The position numbers and the translations under genes were made by a program. The notes beneath the pieces were generated by a model. That model saw nothing but the letters and a program-made list of their open reading frames with translations, ran no database searches and had not been told where the DNA came from. This document shows positions 13,780-32,963 of a stretch of DNA of 45,402 bases, in pieces; the stretch's first letter is position 1; each line of letters begins with the position of its first letter. Source of the DNA: a virus. The stretch is taken from positions 1 through 45,402 of the IMG/VR virus record IMGVR_UViG_3300021356_000037; one strand, 5' to 3'.

Positions 13780-14436
13780 ATGGCATCGACCAACGCACCG
13801 ACTCCAAGGAGAAGGAGTTTATCTGATATCAAGTCAAACTTGATGAAACCTGCATTGACATCACACTTTGATGTCTTTGTCAGAGAACCCGCTGGGGAGT
13901 GGAGTAGTTTCAAAGCAGCTAATCAACTTTCTGGATTTGATCAGGAATTACTTCATCTATCTTGCTCTCAAGCATCTCTACCTGGGTCATCTTTTATGAC
14001 TCACGAAGTCACTAGTGACTATACTGGTGTGACTGAGAAACATGCATACAGAAGAGCATATGATGGCAAGATTGATCTAACTTTTTATGTGATGATATCT
14101 CCAAGCAACACAAATTCTCAGAGTGCAACTCCAAATGGATATCTTCCCATAAGATTTTTTGAAACGTGGATGAAGTATATTTCTAATGAGGAAGATCAAG
14201 ATCTCGATGCAGAGAACTATGCATATCGAATGAGATATCCAAAAGATTACTACGGTGGTCTATCTGTGTTAAAATATGAGAGAGATTACGATCCAGACTC
14301 ATATTTGACTTACAATTTCATTTCGGCATATCCGATTTCAATCAATGCAATGCCAGTTTCATATGAGGCAAGTGATCTTTTGAAATGTACTGTTTCTATG
14401 TCATATTCAAGGTATTATGTTACTAGAAACAGATAA
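13780..14436 (+). CDS. Tail tube-like protein (gp54/gp19 family)
   Basis: A 218-residue protein with a tail-tube type fold: KHAYRRAYDGKIDLTFYV, FFETWMKYISNEED, YRMRYPKDYYGG and a beta-strand ending ISAYPISINAMPVSYEASD followed by LKCTVSMSYSRYYV. The position beside gp4/gp48/gp53 and before gp26 makes a tube initiator (gp54-like) more likely than the main tube gp19, but both share this fold. gp54 of T4 is longer (320 aa). It starts 40 bases from the divergent gp4. Confidence 0.65.
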   Translation: MASTNAPTPRRRSLSDIKSNLMKPALTSHFDVFVREPAGEWSSFKAANQLSGFDQELLHLSCSQASLPGSSFMTHEVTSDYTGVTEKHAYRRAYDGKIDLTFYVMISPSNTNSQSATPNGYLPIRFFETWMKYISNEEDQDLDAENYAYRMRYPKDYYGGLSVLKYERDYDPDSYLTYNFISAYPISINAMPVSYEASDLLKCTVSMSYSRYYVTRNR

Positions 14437-14492: not shown

Positions 14493-15212
14493 ATGCCTTT
14501 ACCGAAGATTTCTACACCAACTTATGAACTTGAGTTGCCTTCATCTGGACAATCTATTCAATATAGACCTTTCCTTGTAAAGGAGGAAAAGGTTCTTGTA
14601 ATTGCATTGGAGAGTGAAGATACAAAACAGATCACTACGGCGATCAAAACTGTTATTAAGAATTGCATTAAAACGAGAGGAATCAAAGTAGAGAGTTTAC
14701 CTACCTTTGATATTGAATATCTCTTCTTGAATATTCGTGGTAAGTCTGTTGGAGAAGAGATTGAAGTTAATCTTATTTGTCCTGATGACAATGAAACTTC
14801 ATCAACTGTGACTGTGAACTTGGATGATATTCAGGTAGTTAAAAATGATGATCACACAAATCAAATCAAGATTGATAATGAAATTATGATGGAAATGAGA
14901 TATCCATCTCTTGATGAGTTTATCAAAAACAATTTTGATATTGCAGGAACCAGTGATATGGATCAGTCATTTGAACTGATCGCATCATGTATTGATAAGA
15001 TCTATACTGCTGATGAAGTGTGGTCTGTTGCTGATTGCACTAAGAAAGAAATTCGTGAATTCATTGAGTCGATGAACTCCTCTCAGTTTAAAGGTATTGA
15101 ATCCTTCTTCTCAACAATGCCAAAACTGAGTCATACAGTTGAGGTGTATAATCCAAATACTAAAGTGAAGAGTGAAGTCGTTCTTGAGGGTCTGGCAAGT
15201 TTTTTCGGCTAG
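14493..15212 (+). CDS. 26: gp26-like baseplate hub / tail chaperone
   Basis: A 239-residue protein starting PLPKISTPTYELELPSSGQ and SIQYRPFLVKEEKVLVIALE, the signature of T4 gp26. In T4 it is needed for hub assembly. The final codons before TAG read AGT TTT TTC GGC: T TTT TTC is a canonical -1 slippery heptamer, and the -1 frame continues into the next small ORF. A shifted product would be about 300 residues. The neighbouring tape-measure-sized genes fit a tail assembly chaperone role. Confidence 0.85.
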   Translation: MPLPKISTPTYELELPSSGQSIQYRPFLVKEEKVLVIALESEDTKQITTAIKTVIKNCIKTRGIKVESLPTFDIEYLFLNIRGKSVGEEIEVNLICPDDNETSSTVTVNLDDIQVVKNDDHTNQIKIDNEIMMEMRYPSLDEFIKNNFDIAGTSDMDQSFELIASCIDKIYTADEVWSVADCTKKEIREFIESMNSSQFKGIESFFSTMPKLSHTVEVYNPNTKVKSEVVLEGLASFFG

Positions 15213-15230
15213 GCATGGTCCACATGGACC
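15200..15230 (+). promoter_or_regulatory. Candidate programmed -1 frameshift signal
   Basis: Slippery T TTT TTC at 15200-15206 in the correct phase (zero-frame TTT TTC), six nucleotides before the zero-frame TAG. A GGTCC-ACAT-GGACC stem-loop (15217-15230) starts ten bases downstream; CTAGG/CCTAG could extend an alternative pairing. The -1 frame is open through the small ORF to 15394. Confidence 0.7.
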
Positions 15231-15394
15231 TAGAGGCATATTATCGATTAAATTTTGCCTTGATGCAGTACCATAAATACTCATTAACCGAGATAGAAAA
15301 CTTGATTCCATGGGAACGTGACATTTACGTTGCGTTTTTACAGCAACATTTGGAAGAAGAAAAGTTAAAAGCACAGCAAGCGAATGGCATCTAG
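15215..15394 (+). CDS. Small -1-frame ORF after gp26 (T-like chaperone part)
   Basis: A 59-residue frame: MVHMDLEAYYRLNFALMQYH, then YSLTEIENLIPWERDIYVAF and a charged end with EEEKLKAQQANGI. The L-T-E-I-E-x-L-x-P-W-E-R-D-I-Y pattern is typical of the second part of tail assembly chaperones in long-tailed phages. It lies in the -1 frame of gp26, three bases after its stop, and overlaps the tape-measure start by 11 bases. It may be made as a gp26 fusion by frameshifting, from its own ATG, or both. T4 has gp51 at this place, but that protein is far longer. Confidence 0.7.
   Translation: MVHMDLEAYYRLNFALMQYHKYSLTEIENLIPWERDIYVAFLQQHLEEEKLKAQQANGI
15272..15279 (+). promoter_or_regulatory. Candidate late promoter inside small ORF
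   Basis: CATAAATA, a one-base variant of the T4 late box, 105 bases upstream of the tape-measure gene. It is within coding sequence, so chance is possible. Confidence 0.3.
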
Positions 15395-17834
15395 TCTTGA
15401 CAAGCTCCTAAAATCTATACGCGACGAGGCAAAGAAAGAATCTGCTCTCGTCGCAAGTGGTGGTGCGAAAAAGAGTCAAGATATTAGTGAAGAGATAGAC
15501 GAAAGAATTTTAAGACTTCTTGGTATTGAAGATACCTTTGATATTGATTATGCGACATACAAAACTCTCTTGAAAGAGAGAATGGCTGCTGCCAGAATGT
15601 CGAAGAGTAATATTCCCACAGAAGAAACTGAGTTAATTACTGATGAGTTTAAGAGAGTAAAGACAAACGAAGGTAGATTTAAAGTAAAGAAGAAGAAAAT
15701 AACTGTTTCGGATATTAGAAAAACAAGTCCACTAAAAAGAGTTGGTGCAGGAGCGTCTCAAAAACTACTGGCACCAGCACAAGATTTGAGTCCAATAGAA
15801 GAGATTTCTAACTCTCTTGGAAATATTGTAAGTCTCCTCCAAGAAAGGAATACTTTACTTAAGAAACAATCAGATAAATCTAGAAGACAATCTCAAAACG
15901 AAGAGAGAGCAGCAACTGAGTCTAGATTTGAAAATAGTGGATTAGGAAAAGTTTTAGAAGGGGCAAAGAAAGCTATTGCTCCTGTTCAGAATATCTTAAG
16001 TAAAATTTTTGAGATCTTTACGAAGATCGTTCTTGGCAAATTCATAATGAAGTTCATTGACTGGTTTGCTGATGATGAAAATCAAGGTAAGATTAAAGCG
16101 ATCGGTACATTTTTAAAGGATCATTGGCCCAAACTACTTGCAGCATATCTACTGTTTGGTAATGGTCTTGGTAGATTCGTTGTAAAAATAACTGCGATGT
16201 TGGTAAAGGGTGCTGCTGTACTCACCACTAAAGTTCTTAAACAGTTATTTAAGTTTATAAAGTCAAATCCGAAACTAGCAGTGCTTGCTGGTGCTGCGGG
16301 ATTATTTGCTGCTGGTGCTGCTATTCCTGCGCTGATGCCAGAAACAACGCAAGATGATGCAGATAAACAAGCAGATGCCGCTGCAAAAGAGAAAGGAAAC
16401 GAACAGGCAGCAGCAGATATTAGAAAACAAAATGAAAATAGAGGCATTCTTGGTTCTATTAGTGATTTCTTTACAGGTGCTGGTCAAGAAAGAAAAGAAC
16501 AAGCGCAGAGATTACAGACTGGTAAAGAAAAGAGATATGGATTCTTTGGTGAACTGAGTCAAGGTGGTAAAATTAACGGTCCTAGTGGAACTGATGTAAT
16601 TCCTGCTCGACTGACAAAAGGTGAATTTGTTATGAGTAAGGGTGCTGTTGATACCTTTGGATCTGACTTTATGGAATCTATCAACGCTGCTGGTGGTGGT
16701 AACAACAGACCTAAGACTGTTAGTGGAACACTTTATGCTAGTGGTGGTGGAATGGTTGGACAATCTGATGAACCAAAGTCAAGACCTACGATGAGTAAGT
16801 ATGACATAGAATCTATAGTTGAAAGAGTTGTTGATAGAAAGTTGGGAATACTAGGTAGTGGATCGATGAGCGCACCTCAACCAAGATCTAAAGAAACTGG
16901 ATCTGGTGGTGGATCGATGAGCGCACCTCAACCAAGATCTGGTCAAGGTTCTAGAAGATCTAAAGCAACTGGATATGGTGGAGGATTCCTTAGTCAATTA
17001 AATCGTTCAGTTTCTGGAGCGTTTGATCGATTGGTTGGTAATAATAATCAAGTATCTGCTGTAGCAAAACCAACTCAAGCAACAGCGGTCTCTGCACCCA
17101 CAGCGACTTCTGAGACGGCAGAAAAACGTCATAGTGAACTGATGAAATCTACCAGTCCTGAAAGGATTGCTTCTTATGATGCAAAACATGGCGATGGAGC
17201 ATACGCTAAAAAACTACAACAAAAATTAAATAAAATTTATACATCTGAAAAAGCAAATGTTCCAACAGGTGAAATAAAACCAACAGGAAAGGTTGTTGGT
17301 AGAGAAAATTTACCACTTGCCACTCAAAAAATATTGGCAAAGATGGATGCTGAAAAAGCAACTGCTAAAAAATCTAATATGCAGTATACCAAAGATGGTA
17401 AGAAAATATCTGCAGAACAATTTAATAAAATTAAGAGTGGTAATATAATTCCTGGTGGTGGAAAACCAGGTGGACTTTTTGGTGGTATGTTTGGAGGTAT
17501 GGGAAAACCACCTGGTCCTGCACCAGGTCAAAATGTTATTGATGGAAACATTGGTAAACCCACAAGACAAGAACAAAAAGATATTGATGCTCTTGCTGCT
17601 AAAAAAGAAAAACTCAGACAAAGTGAAGAACTTTTAGCTAAGATGACTGGATCGAAGGTTTCTGTGCCTCAACCACCAACATCTCCTGCTCCTAAGGTTA
17701 TGTCTATTAATACATCGAGTGGTGGAAATAATAGTCAATCATCTTCATCACCATCAAATTCCTTACCTCAATTGTCCGCATCTTCCAGTTCTACAAGCAA
17801 GGGTAGAAACACAAAACTGTTTGGTATTTTCTAA
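15384..17834 (+). CDS. Tape-measure-like tail protein 1
   Basis: An 816-residue protein placed directly after the chaperone pair. Residues about 1-160 are charged and coiled-coil-like (RNTLLKKQSDKSRRQSQNEE near 155), then a hydrophobic region about 210-320 (FTKIVLGKFIMKFIDWFAD; LAVLAGAAGLFAAGAAIPAL). Near residue 395 is GGKINGPSGTDVIPARLTKG EFVMSKGAV, a pattern often seen in phage tape-measure proteins. The C-terminal 300 residues are glycine/proline/serine-rich with a 51-bp direct repeat. It probably sets tail length or forms the hub core, and resembles the N-terminal part of the next gene. Confidence 0.7.
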   Translation: MASSLDKLLKSIRDEAKKESALVASGGAKKSQDISEEIDERILRLLGIEDTFDIDYATYKTLLKERMAAARMSKSNIPTEETELITDEFKRVKTNEGRFKVKKKKITVSDIRKTSPLKRVGAGASQKLLAPAQDLSPIEEISNSLGNIVSLLQERNTLLKKQSDKSRRQSQNEERAATESRFENSGLGKVLEGAKKAIAPVQNILSKIFEIFTKIVLGKFIMKFIDWFADDENQGKIKAIGTFLKDHWPKLLAAYLLFGNGLGRFVVKITAMLVKGAAVLTTKVLKQLFKFIKSNPKLAVLAGAAGLFAAGAAIPALMPETTQDDADKQADAAAKEKGNEQAAADIRKQNENRGILGSISDFFTGAGQERKEQAQRLQTGKEKRYGFFGELSQGGKINGPSGTDVIPARLTKGEFVMSKGAVDTFGSDFMESINAAGGGNNRPKTVSGTLYASGGGMVGQSDEPKSRPTMSKYDIESIVERVVDRKLGILGSGSMSAPQPRSKETGSGGGSMSAPQPRSGQGSRRSKATGYGGGFLSQLNRSVSGAFDRLVGNNNQVSAVAKPTQATAVSAPTATSETAEKRHSELMKSTSPERIASYDAKHGDGAYAKKLQQKLNKIYTSEKANVPTGEIKPTGKVVGRENLPLATQKILAKMDAEKATAKKSNMQYTKDGKKISAEQFNKIKSGNIIPGGGKPGGLFGGMFGGMGKPPGPAPGQNVIDGNIGKPTRQEQKDIDALAAKKEKLRQSEELLAKMTGSKVSVPQPPTSPAPKVMSINTSSGGNNSQSSSSPSNSLPQLSASSSSTSKGRNTKLFGIF
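16860..16940 (+). repeat. 51-bp direct repeat in tape-measure gene
   Basis: A 30-base unit encoding GSMSAPQPRS is identical at 16860-16889 and 16911-16940, 51 bases apart; a third, partial copy of the flanking RSK-TG-GGG coding follows. It lies in the flexible C-terminal region, consistent with in-frame expansion. Confidence 0.85.
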
Positions 17835-17837
17835 GAT

Positions 17838-20474
17838 ATGGAACGAATCAGACTAAATCCAACATCTAAAAAAATATCAGCACAATCCCTCCGCAGTCAA
17901 AGGGGAGTGTTTGTTACTGGAAAGCAACTGATTAGCATCAGATCAAAAACAGTCCGCATCGAAAAGATGCTTGGTAAGGAGAATAGTATCCTTAAAAAGC
18001 AACTAGACAAACAGAGAATACAAACTCAAAATAAAAAGAGAAAGGAAAAAGAAGAAAAGTTTGAGAAGAAACCAGATGCAAAGAAGGAAGCAAAGAACGA
18101 CGGTCTTTCAATGCCACGTATTGGATTCTTTGAAAAGGTCAAGAACTTTATAGGTAAAGTTCTTCTTGGTTTTGCAGCAATTCAGTTGTTACCTATTCTT
18201 CCACAATTAATAGAATTTCTACCTAAACTTGAAGGAATTCTTGATTTTGTTTCTAATCTTGGAATCGGATTTCTTAATGTGCTTGGTGGTGCTCTAGAAG
18301 GTGCATATAAGTTAAGAGAGAAAACCATTGGATTTATCGACCAGATTGGTGGTGAGGGTGCTGTCAATGCTTTCATGAAGTTTGAAAAAGCAATTGAAGC
18401 AACACTTACTGCACTGATCGCTGTTGGTGGTATTATGGCTATCGCTTCTAAAGGTGGTGGTCCTGGTGGTCGTAAAGGTTCAGGAAAACTTGGACGTGAT
18501 CGAAGTGGACGTAAAGTATCCAAGTCAGCACAGAGAGCCTATGCGAAAAAATATGGAAGAGATAAGTTTATTGAGAGATTTGGTACGAAGAACTTAAAAA
18601 ATCTTCCAAAGTCAATGCAACGTAGTGCTGCTACGAAAGTTGCAAGAAAAGCAACCACAGCAGTCCTTGGAAAGTCGGGTGCAAAACTGACTATGAAATT
18701 CGCGAAGAATTTTATTAGTCCTATTGTCAAGAGAATTCCAATCATTGGTGGATTGATTGACTTTGCTCTTAATTACTTTGTATTTAAAGAACCAGTTGGT
18801 AAAGCAGCATTCAAGGCTATTGGTGCTACTGTAGGTGGTGCATTGGGTGCTGCTATAGGATCTGTTGTTCCTTTATTTGGCAACATCGTAGGAGCTGTTG
18901 CTGGTGGTTCAGTTGGTGATTGGTTGGGTGGTTTAATGTATGATACATTCTTCTCTGGTAAAAAACCACTTGATACTTCTAAAGATTTTAAGAGTACCGA
19001 AAGCGGTTCGGCAGGTCAATCGACACCATCTGGTGGTATGGGTACGGGTCAAGTCCAGGGTGCCCCTTTGGGCATGGGACAGAAGCAGGCATTCGCTACT
19101 GTATATGAGTTAGCGAAGAAGCATGGTGCTAAGTTCCCAGAAATCGTTGCTGCTCAAGCAATGCACGAAACTGGATATCTGAGTGAGAATCTTGATAGTG
19201 TCTTCAACTCTACAGGAAGAACTAATGCATTTGGACAGACTGGTGATAGGGGATATGGTACAATTCCAAGAGCAGGATCTGCTGTTGGGTGGACAAAGTA
19301 TCCAAGTTTGGACAAAGCAGTAGAGGATAATATTAAATTATGGCACAGAGTTTCTCAGCATCCAGGAAATTATGAGGCATTTAATACGGCTATAGAAGGT
19401 ATTGCTTCAGTAGCCCCTGTCTATTCTCCTAATGCTGATCCAGCAAATATTAGAAATGGATTTACTGTTGATGCCTACAGTAAAGGTATGGTAAAGATTA
19501 TGAAGAGTATGGGATTTGATCCATACAAATCAAATAAGATGAAAGATCTTAGTAGTGATGCTATGTTGAATCAGGTTACTCCTCTAATGGAACCTGCACA
19601 AAGACCAAAGATAGATGCTGGTGACGGAACTACTTCATCAGGAACAGGTTCTGGTGGAATGTATACTGGTCCTGCTGGCCAGATTGGTGCTGGTGCCGCA
19701 TATCACGTTGATACTAAGTTCCACAAGAGTATTGGCATGGGCGGAATGATATCTGCAATGGATGAACTAGCAAATGCATATGCTGCTAGAGGAAGAGAAA
19801 TTGTGTTCTCTGGTCAGGGATATGCTAGACTTAAAGCATATACCTCTGATCTCGAAAGCGAAGAGAAGAAAGCACTCTTGAATGCTGCAATTGATGCACA
19901 CAGTCACTCCACATTTATGAGAGCAGAAGGATTCTTACCGTTTGATTATTACATTCCAAACATTGGTATCAGAGACCTTTACCACCCATCAACAGAGGGT
20001 GCAGAGATTCTGTTACCAAGTTTTGGTGGTAGTAAAAAGGTCGGTGCTCTTTATGGTGGTTATGGTAGAAGTGCTGACATCTATGATTCCTCTGGCAATC
20101 ATGTTGCGATGACGGGTCACGGTGACTTGAGAAGATCTCACGTTGGAACCATTAATGGTAATGAAACAGTTATATCAATGAAGAATCAGACTCTCTTGTC
20201 ACCTTCTGCGTCGGAGGCACTGGGTCCTGCTCTAACTGCTCAGATTGACTCACAATCTACTCCAGAAGGTATTAGAAGAGTGATGGAAGCTGCTGTTGGT
20301 ATATCCGAACGCACCACATATGAAGACACTGGAGCACAAACTATCATAATCAACAACCAGACAATAAATCAAAACAGTGGTGGTTATGGATCTAAATCTA
20401 TGGGCCCAATGACCATTGGTGCTGCTAGTGGTGGTGGAAGTGATTATGGTGAAATGTTGGCAGCTGGTCAATAA
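17838..20474 (+). CDS. Tape-measure-like protein 2 with glucosaminidase-like domain
   Basis: An 878-residue protein. Residues about 45-150 repeat the layout of the previous protein (NSILKKQLDKQRIQTQNKKR, then FFEKVKNFIGKVLLGFAAIQ). Hydrophobic helices span about 290-375. About 410-565 is a peptidoglycan-hydrolase-like domain of the glucosaminidase type: FPEIVAAQAMHETGYLSENL with the likely catalytic glutamate E444, and TNAFGQTGDRGYG. A further C-terminal region (about 615-770; YHVDTKFHKSIGMGG, HSHSTFMRAEGF, GHGDL) is rich in conserved-looking histidines, but I cannot name it. It may digest the cell wall during DNA injection. Confidence 0.72.
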   Translation: MERIRLNPTSKKISAQSLRSQRGVFVTGKQLISIRSKTVRIEKMLGKENSILKKQLDKQRIQTQNKKRKEKEEKFEKKPDAKKEAKNDGLSMPRIGFFEKVKNFIGKVLLGFAAIQLLPILPQLIEFLPKLEGILDFVSNLGIGFLNVLGGALEGAYKLREKTIGFIDQIGGEGAVNAFMKFEKAIEATLTALIAVGGIMAIASKGGGPGGRKGSGKLGRDRSGRKVSKSAQRAYAKKYGRDKFIERFGTKNLKNLPKSMQRSAATKVARKATTAVLGKSGAKLTMKFAKNFISPIVKRIPIIGGLIDFALNYFVFKEPVGKAAFKAIGATVGGALGAAIGSVVPLFGNIVGAVAGGSVGDWLGGLMYDTFFSGKKPLDTSKDFKSTESGSAGQSTPSGGMGTGQVQGAPLGMGQKQAFATVYELAKKHGAKFPEIVAAQAMHETGYLSENLDSVFNSTGRTNAFGQTGDRGYGTIPRAGSAVGWTKYPSLDKAVEDNIKLWHRVSQHPGNYEAFNTAIEGIASVAPVYSPNADPANIRNGFTVDAYSKGMVKIMKSMGFDPYKSNKMKDLSSDAMLNQVTPLMEPAQRPKIDAGDGTTSSGTGSGGMYTGPAGQIGAGAAYHVDTKFHKSIGMGGMISAMDELANAYAARGREIVFSGQGYARLKAYTSDLESEEKKALLNAAIDAHSHSTFMRAEGFLPFDYYIPNIGIRDLYHPSTEGAEILLPSFGGSKKVGALYGGYGRSADIYDSSGNHVAMTGHGDLRRSHVGTINGNETVISMKNQTLLSPSASEALGPALTAQIDSQSTPEGIRRVMEAAVGISERTTYEDTGAQTIIINNQTINQNSGGYGSKSMGPMTIGAASGGGSDYGEMLAAGQ

Positions 20475-28690: not shown

Positions 28691-29458
28691 ATGTCGTTTT
28701 TATTTGATGATTTGGCTATAGGTGGCCAACAGACTGTCGGGGCAGGAATGCCCATCGTATTAGGTCTTGGTCAATCAAAAATCAGAGGTTCTTCATTTGT
28801 AGAGGGACCACAACTAATCGGTAGTGCTACCACTTGGCCAATTTTGGGCGCAACTCTGATGGTTGCACCATTAGCTAATGAAGATGCTTCAACTCCTTCT
28901 ATTCCAGGAGGACTTTGTGGCGGACTCAATAATCCATACTCTCTTGGAGTCATAGGTTCATCTGCTTTTCTAGGCCCTGTAGATACAAATGATACAGTTC
29001 AAGTCGGTCTGGATTTATATGCTCAAGGCAATGTAATATCTAACTGTGGTGGACATATTCTTGCTGCAAAGAAAGACTTTGACATTCAACACCCGACAAG
29101 AGAGGGATGGAGACTTAGACACGTTGCACCTGAAGCGCCATATGCAGATGTTTATGTGAGAGGTAGGGTAAAGAATAAAAAAGAAATTGAACTACCTAGT
29201 TACTGGAAAGGATTAGTTGATCAAGAATCAATTACAGTTTCTCTGACTCCTATTGGTTCTCATCAGAATGTGATTGTTAAAAGGATTGACGAAGACAAAG
29301 TATATCTTCAAGCAAATGGAGGAATGCCAATTGATTGTTTCTATCATATCTTTGCAGAAAGAAAAGACTGTGAAAGAAATATTGCCGAATATGAAGGAAC
29401 TTCCCCTGAGCATTATCCAGGAGACAATACACAATACCTGCAATCAGGTAAATCATAA
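28691..29458 (+). CDS. Fibre-domain structural protein, paralogue 1
   Basis: A 255-residue protein. The N-terminal half is small-residue-rich (IRGSSFVEGPQLIGSATTW). About residues 130-235 form a domain found at the ends of phage fibres: FDIQHPTREGWRLRHVAPEA, YVRGRVKNKKEIELPSYWKG and TVSLTPIGSHQNVIVK. It ends YEGTSPEHYPGDN. The gene has a clear TAGGAG ribosome site. The next gene repeats this domain, so the pair arose by duplication; both are probably tail or neck fibre parts. Confidence 0.7.
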   Translation: MSFLFDDLAIGGQQTVGAGMPIVLGLGQSKIRGSSFVEGPQLIGSATTWPILGATLMVAPLANEDASTPSIPGGLCGGLNNPYSLGVIGSSAFLGPVDTNDTVQVGLDLYAQGNVISNCGGHILAAKKDFDIQHPTREGWRLRHVAPEAPYADVYVRGRVKNKKEIELPSYWKGLVDQESITVSLTPIGSHQNVIVKRIDEDKVYLQANGGMPIDCFYHIFAERKDCERNIAEYEGTSPEHYPGDNTQYLQSGKS

Positions 29459-29470
29459 GGAGATTGAATT

Positions 29471-30220
29471 ATGTCAGAATTTGTAGAACAGGAAATAACG
29501 CCCCAGAAGGATTGTGCAGATTATCCAACATGGGGCCAACCATCCACCAGTTACTACTATATTTTCAAGGGTAATGCAGATGAATCGCAATATCCACCAG
29601 ACGCATGTGAACCTTGGTATCATCAGACAGCACAGATTGATAGTCTTCAGGTAAATACTTCTATCATTGGCGACGGTGAGATTAATATTACTGGCGAGAT
29701 CACAGCACCTATTTTCAATGGTAGTGCTACATCAGCAAAAGTTATCGGTGGTGCATTTGACATCCCACACTTCAGAGATGAAAAGAAAAGGATTCGTCAC
29801 GTCATTGCAGAGGGTCCAGAGGCAGGAATCTATGTTCGTGGAACTCTGAAGGACTCTAATAAAATTGAACTACCTGAGTATTGGGATGGTATTGTTGATC
29901 CAGAAACCATTACAGTAACTCTTACTCAGATTGGATATTCTCAAGATCTTATCGTTGAAGGTATTGAGTGGGGCAAAGTTATCAAGGTCAAGTCTGGTAC
30001 TGGAGCAAATATTCATTGCTACTATGAAGTATGGGCAGCACGTTACATTAATCCACTGGACCATGATGAAAAACTCCACGTTGTATACGAGGGAGACAGT
30101 CCTGAAGACTATCCAGGCAATAATGAATACTATTTGGTTGGTGGATGGGATTACGACCGACGTGAGACCAAGTGGAGGCGTCCAGATGAGGAACTGGACT
30201 CTGTGAACCTTGACCCATAA
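29471..30220 (+). CDS. Fibre-domain structural protein, paralogue 2
   Basis: A 249-residue protein with the same C-terminal fibre domain: FDIPHFRDEKKRIRHVIAEG, YVRGTLKDSNKIELPEYWDG, TVTLTQIGYSQDLIVEGIE and YEGDSPEDYPGNN. The N-terminus is different (PTWGQPSTSYYYIFKGNAD), with a short beta-repeat (IIGDGEINITGEITAPIFNG). AAGGAG lies before the start. The -35 box of the next promoter is inside its last codons. Confidence 0.7.
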   Translation: MSEFVEQEITPQKDCADYPTWGQPSTSYYYIFKGNADESQYPPDACEPWYHQTAQIDSLQVNTSIIGDGEINITGEITAPIFNGSATSAKVIGGAFDIPHFRDEKKRIRHVIAEGPEAGIYVRGTLKDSNKIELPEYWDGIVDPETITVTLTQIGYSQDLIVEGIEWGKVIKVKSGTGANIHCYYEVWAARYINPLDHDEKLHVVYEGDSPEDYPGNNEYYLVGGWDYDRRETKWRRPDEELDSVNLDP

Positions 30221-32369: not shown

Positions 32370-32963
32370 ATGAAGAGCGAATTTTACATAGATAGAGTTG
32401 ATAAGGAAAGTTGCAAAAATCTACTTTACAACTATCATTATCTAAAAGACGAATCTAAGGATTTCAAATCTGGGTATAATTATGGACTTTTCAAGCATAC
32501 TGACTGGGAATGCCCTCTTAGAATTGGCGGGTGCCTTGGTGTTTGCATTTTTACTGGGCTCCCAGTTCCAGAAATAGCAAAAGGTGCCTTTGGTCTGGAA
32601 CGTGATCAACAGGAAGGTTTATTTGAACTTTCTAGATTGTGTATTGACCCAGATGTTCAAAAAGAAGAATATAACATTACCTCTTGGTTCGTCAGTCGTT
32701 GTATAAAGAGGTTTCGGAAAGATGCAAATGTTCGCGCTATTCTTAGTTATGCTGACTCTGCTCACCATAGCGGAATCATTTACCGTGCGTGCAATTTTAA
32801 GTATTATGGGTTGACAGACGCCAAAAAAGACTTTTATTATGCTGATGGAACAAAGCATTCTCGTGGTTCTGTGAAGGGTTCTGATGGGGAATGGCGTGAT
32901 AGAACTCGCAAGCATCGATATTTGATGGTCTTTGATAAGCAAATGAATGTACTATGGGGATAA
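32370..32963 (+). CDS. Mom-like DNA modification / GNAT-fold protein
   Basis: A 197-residue protein resembling phage Mu Mom and related GNAT-fold proteins. The signature region is FELSRLCIDPDVQKEEYNIT, SWFVSRCIKRFRKDANVRAI, LSYADSAHHSGIIYRACNFK and YYGLTDAKKDFYYADGTKHS. Mu Mom modifies adenine to protect phage DNA from restriction. No Mom partner (Com) is seen nearby. Its place in the tRNA-associated accessory region fits a defence-evasion role. The match is by pattern, so another acyl-transferase-like role is possible. Confidence 0.65.
   Translation: MKSEFYIDRVDKESCKNLLYNYHYLKDESKDFKSGYNYGLFKHTDWECPLRIGGCLGVCIFTGLPVPEIAKGAFGLERDQQEGLFELSRLCIDPDVQKEEYNITSWFVSRCIKRFRKDANVRAILSYADSAHHSGIIYRACNFKYYGLTDAKKDFYYADGTKHSRGSVKGSDGEWRDRTRKHRYLMVFDKQMNVLWG

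Follow-up and report, generated by a model that had tools for sequence, protein, structure and literature searches.

Bacteriophage lambda makes a short tail assembly chaperone, gpG, together with a long form, gpGT, which arises by −1 frameshifting at the slip site G GGA AAG, in a gene cluster ordered tube, chaperone, T and tape measure. Neither gpG nor gpGT is present in the virion, and the 2016 review that summarises this system lists T4 as an exception to conserved G-T frameshifting (PMC5009743). T4 assembly requires gp51, a protein described as having no known function and absent from the particle; gp26 is entered among the chaperones of hub assembly (PMC3004832). When 26 T4-like genomes were compared, gp51 was reported to be missing only in Aeh1 and to have about 20% of its normal length in cyanophages (PMC3037559). 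According to papers citing it, the work of Vladimirov, Gautam & Davidson 2022 (Virology 566:9-15) covers both T4-like phages with short and fused long chaperone genes instead of frameshifting (as cited in PMC10885494) and poly-T slippery sequences in T4-like chaperone genes (as cited in PMC12846349).

Here, we analyse the end of gene 26 in IMG/VR record IMGVR_UViG_3300021356_000037, positions 1-45402, a whole 45-kb viral record of 45,402 nucleotides that we call the window. The locus would have the lambda gene order if its candidate tape-measure genes are such and, very probably as in lambda G/GT, −1 ribosomal frameshifting yields a 239-aa short and a ~300-aa long chaperone, a reading that we draw from sequence comparison. 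It differs from lambda in that the slip site is T TTT TTC, the short form is the 239-aa gp26 and a covarying hairpin follows, and no sequence similarity is shown between gp26 and lambda G. A conserved −1 open frame and a poly-T slip motif at the chaperone 3′ end are also found in the Vandenendeviridae/Andersonviridae (phage Adele, PMC12846349), but the motif there is GTTTTT instead of the full T TTT TTC. With T4 the locus has the PF12322/phrog_150 family in common, and gp51 would correspond to the long form as one continuous gene; T4, however, uses two divergent genes and no slip site, whereas the cyanophage uses one gene and a frameshift.

Results

Judged by its gene content, the window comes from a T4-like cyanophage, as it carries psbA, PhoH, a gp32-type single-strand binding protein, a gp59-type helicase loader and T4-type baseplate genes. 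Gene 26 (14493..15212; + strand, like the other features of this tail region) encodes the predicted 239-aa short tail assembly chaperone (TAC-N, lambda gpG-like), with matches to PF12322 (E=1.3e-75; 254 bits against a cut-off of 24.5) and phrog_150 (E=8.3e-81). Upstream, in the position of lambda V, lies a gene for a tail tube-like protein (13780..14436; PF23849 E=3e-12; phrog_45 tail tube E=6.5e-26). Two large genes that the earlier note had seen downstream as tape-measure-sized are indeed present. One is an 816-aa ORF (15384..17834) matching phrog_35029 (function unknown; E=1.3e-106), which synteny makes a candidate tape measure or tail protein; the other is an 878-aa ORF (17838..20474) with glucosaminidase-like and glycine-zipper segments and weak tape-measure and tail-lysin matches. 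PHROG support for a tape-measure role of these large ORFs is weak.

Among the 624 PDB chains aligned with an AlphaFold2 model of gp26 (mean pLDDT 85), the top match was the HK97 tail assembly chaperone 2ob9 (Z 7.9, 84 residues, 4.1 Å), in a range of Z below 8 where a match can reflect a common arrangement and chance matches occur. Next came 3fgx (Z 7.8) and YqbN 3klu (Z 7.3), which we take to be phage-type tail proteins as well, and then a value of 5.2; Foldseek gave E 0.63. A sequence search of the PDB with the gp26 and gp51 profiles found no relative, and a fold search with a gp51 model gave nothing above Z 4.9, though the N-terminal part of gp51 is homologous to gp26. The modelled resemblance to the HK97 protein, together with the colinearity of T4 gp51 with the predicted fusion (see below), speaks for the tail-chaperone analogy drawn at the outset.

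At the 3′ end of gene 26, the heptamer T TTT TTC (15200..15206) has the X XXY YYZ form in the zero-frame phase of the gene, with TTT (15201-15203) and TTC (15204-15206) as zero-frame codons. The distance to the gp26 stop codon TAG (15210..15212), which shifting ribosomes would bypass, is three bases (GGC) and not six, the only factual slip of the earlier note; its reading of the heptamer and phase, of a −1 frame running without a stop into a 59-codon ORF, of a stem-loop ten bases on and of a T-like small ORF agrees with what we see. The −1 frame has no stop from 22 nt ahead of the gp26 stop until its own TAG at 15392-15394. Its post-shift extension of 62 aa (15206..15394; TAC-C, lambda T-like, 'gp51' in cyanophage annotations) matches phrog_634 (E=8.5e-27) and also the C-terminus of phrog_150 (E=1.4e-4), and a Pfam search with the T ORF gave no significant match. 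The ATG-started part of this frame (15215-15394) has 59 codons and contains LTEIENLIPWERDIY. The predicted fusion would have 238 + 62 = 300 aa, with the joint ...ASFF-RLG.... A stem-loop, GGTCC-ACAT-GGACC (15217..15230; arms 15217-15221 and 15226-15230 with ACAT between them), starts exactly 10 nt past the heptamer and is a putative stimulator. The T frame and the start of the 816-aa ORF overlap by 11 nt (15384-15394), which suggests translational coupling to the next gene.

When viral contigs were scanned with gp26 as the query, 80 relatives with 69-79% gp26 identity emerged. The earlier note had staked its reading on the heptamer, its phase and the −1 open frame being kept in relatives; TTTTTTC is found at the same place and in the same phase in 81/81 close sequences (the 80 relatives and the window), all with an open −1 frame encoding the same protein, which in 2 of them runs off the contig end. 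In the 78 unique close junctions the heptamer columns are invariant while flanking wobble positions vary, and the stop codon itself is TAG in 71, TAA in 5 and TGA in 2. Could the heptamer have arisen by chance, or simply encode a conserved Phe-Phe? The gp26 alignment does show these two residues without exception, as a pure protein constraint would have it, but the preceding codon invariably ends in T, and 78/78 junctions use TTT first and TTC second. In the rest of these same genes, 683 Phe codons are TTT and 247 TTC (73%/27%), so that a fixed TTT-TTC after an invariant T is not codon preference. Furthermore, in T4-group phages, where gp51 is separate, gp26 still ends in FF or an FF-like pair but lacks the slippery string (TTCTTC, TTCTTT). 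We therefore give chance or protein constraint an almost negligible probability.

The pattern extends well beyond close relatives. In 134 unique junctions, which come from T4-like phages outside the T4 group proper and include distant-group loci, T TTT TT[C/T/A] in phase with the T domain in −1 was found in 131 (TTTTTTC 109, TTTTTTT 21, TTTTTTA 1), including phages of Pelagibacter, Pseudomonas, Stenotrophomonas, Aeromonas, Cronobacter, Delftia, Vibrio and Pseudoalteromonas. Heptamers were counted over the last 20 gp26 codons and nearly all lie within the last 10; as a control, of 487 other long ORFs of the same loci, 30 carry a canonical heptamer in phase within the final 12 codons. Conservation at the gp26 junction is, across these aligned sequences, far beyond chance. 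In some genomes (L061, L062, C48C1) a −1 stop directly precedes the heptamer, so that it is at the slip site that the −1 frame becomes open. Of the three exceptions, two are Vibrio phages lacking a canonical heptamer (L089 and L090); in the third, L096, the gp26 frame is disrupted upstream. In the two Vibrio phages (1.244.A and D528) T is in −1, the slip string is CTTTTTC or CTTTTCA and stop and start overlap as TAATG, so that either a different slip mechanism or reinitiation operates there. A scan with the Vibrio gp26 gave no further loci.

In several marine contigs (L126, L141, L153, L156, L162 and L164-L169) the stop of gp26 is displaced 21 nt downstream and the gp26 and T frames overlap; the heptamer keeps its position in the protein, with its codon at −30 and not −9. 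The mere abundance of TTTTTTC was rejected as evidence, given that the window holds 10 copies and its dinucleotide shuffles about 18. The string is rarer than expected, 99 of 100 shuffles having at least as many, perhaps because slippery strings are avoided.

The stem-loop of the window is not significant when taken alone (z −1.25 over 60 nt), and it was consequently tested on relatives. Over the 78 unique close junctions, the five stem pairs form in 86% of cells, against 79% when the 3′ letters were dealt anew (maximum of 500: 81.5%) and at most 53% when the pairing was slid, these shuffle controls leaving relatedness among the sequences in place. Forty-five cells are changed on both sides (compensatory), at least four of the five pairs form in 58/78 junctions, and the 27-nt segment has a mean folding energy of −6.5 kcal/mol and a mean z of −2.3 against mononucleotide shuffles. 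The alignment thus argues for a covarying hairpin at a 10-nt spacer in close relatives, probably a putative stimulator of the shift. An extension of the lower stem by 4 more pairs was dropped (49% paired, against 43% shuffled and 47% slid), and a scan for terminators found none at the hairpin.

This hairpin and the composition of the run also bear on transcriptional slippage, by which the T6-T7 run would add one U to some mRNAs and lead to the same fusion. A homopolymer run of 6-7 T is what such a process would use, and the product would be identical; nevertheless, 109/131 runs end at six T with the rarer Phe codon TTC, although slippage of the polymerase would be favoured by a longer run, and a covarying hairpin held at one spacing is the kind of element expected of a ribosomal signal. 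Neither argument settles the matter, and we regard slippage of the polymerase as having very little probability beside slippage of the ribosome.

Is the T domain made as part of a fusion or as a separate protein? Public records annotate the latter (S-SM2, P-SSM2 and Sf-CH5 as two CDS), which would imply termination and reinitiation from an ATG just past the gp26 stop. Such an ATG lies 2 nt past the stop in 47/78 and 11 nt past it in 75/78 close relatives, so that separate translation of T is possible in most cyanophages, and TAATG or TGATG overlaps occur in KVP40, PhiW-14, BUCT608 and 1.244.A. However, annotated starts drift, lying about 2, 11 or 50 nt past the stop. The first ATG of the 59-codon ORF in the window (15215..15217), a possible start, is not conserved; among the 78 close junctions 47 have Met at this codon and 31 have Leu (one of them TTG), which fits an internal residue and not an obligatory start. 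Between the stop and the last shared ATG (common to 75/78), the nonsynonymous/synonymous-like ratio is 0.37 in −1 versus 1.27 and 4.3 in the other frames, and beyond that ATG it is 0.18 in −1 and above 1 in the others; as judged from these substitutions, purifying selection acts on the codons ahead of the ATG in the −1 frame alone. Finally, 38 of the 134 unique junctions, including those of CC2 and LPCS28, have no ATG, GTG or TTG in the first 16 post-slip codons, which makes independent initiation of the whole T domain implausible there. Separate translation also leaves unexplained the invariant heptamer, the selection on −1 codons ahead of the ATG and the existence of T4 gp51 as a fusion, and we hold it to be very unlikely as the general explanation.

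Frameshifting, by comparison, accounts for both the missing gp51 of Aeh1 and the drastically shortened gp51 of cyanophages. The T frame is unannotated in CC2 (L086), LPCS28 (L085) and Aeh1 (L201) because no start codon is nearby. The T profile recognises the first two, which were among the sequences used to build it, so that Aeh1, from outside this training set, is the independent test. Here the T frame lies in −1 after TTTTTTC (profile E=2.4e-16) and the first NTG is at post-slip codon 20.

T4 gp26 and gp51 both belong to PF12322. T4 gp51 matches phrog_150 over residues 13-280 of 282, as well as the small T family phrog_634, and its C-terminal 50 residues are homologous to the T domain. In hhalign comparisons, residues 12-200 of the gp51 family align with the gp26 family as far as its last Phe-Phe, at the slip site (prob 97.3), and those past 200 align with the T domain; one alignment crosses the joint of a virtual fusion (prob 96.6). 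T4 genes 26 and 51 are transcribed divergently. The simplest reading is that two genes in T4 and one gene with a frameshift elsewhere are two ways to the same protein pair. Essential T4 gp51 would then most likely be the long form of the tail chaperone.

Discussion

From the conservation and phase of the heptamer, the open −1 frame and the selection on it, the covarying hairpin, the colinearity with T4 gp51 and the fold resemblance, we infer slippage, its rate and the binding roles of the products as follows. Once gene 26 is translated, most ribosomes would stop at 15212 and release the 239-aa short form. On T TTT TTC, a minority holding tRNA-Phe on both the P-site TTT and the A-site TTC would move back by a single base, an event that the hairpin 10 nt further on probably assists, and would then follow the −1 frame to 15394. 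The resulting long form of ~300 aa would carry a T-like segment in its last 62 residues. By analogy with lambda, the short form may coat the tape measure and the long form may link the tape measure to the tail tube protein; in T4, two divergent genes would supply this pair, 26 the short form and 51 the long one. In cyanophages, the hairpin might in addition present the ATG found in 75/78 junctions, which sits at the edge of loop and stem, for a free T, giving three products (short, long and free T) from one small RNA element; we think this improbable.

The frameshift reading of the junction, with a ~300-residue minor fusion, is supported by conservation, phase and gp51 colinearity. The earlier note knew of no description of such a case for gp26, and on this point it was probably mistaken: the papers that cite Vladimirov et al. 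2022 credit it with T4-like tail chaperones, with their poly-T slippery sites and with the two-gene solution of T4, so that the gp26 case is probably covered already at the family level. As far as these citations convey it, the principle itself seems to have been in print since 2022, and the novelty here is modest. What is gained is the scale of the conservation, the hairpin and the start-codon argument. The analysis also corrects a systematic annotation error, in that the ~200 residues missing from cyanophage 'gp51' are gp26, joined to it by the predicted frameshift. The junction is also present in Aeh1, reported to lack gp51 (PMC3037559), and no start codon lies close to it there. The comparison further points to what the essential T4 gp51 most likely is, a tail chaperone long form.

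Other parts of the window deserve mention. The psbA (photosystem II D1) reading frame at 107-913 is probably cut by the window's left end. A Mom-like DNA modification protein is encoded at 32370-32963 (phrog_1384, E=1.9e-30), adjoining tail fiber genes. Two adjoining genes, at 28691-29458 and 29471-30220, both match PHROGs 17490 and 28536, whose functions are unknown, and, from these shared matches, are apparently a tandem duplication.
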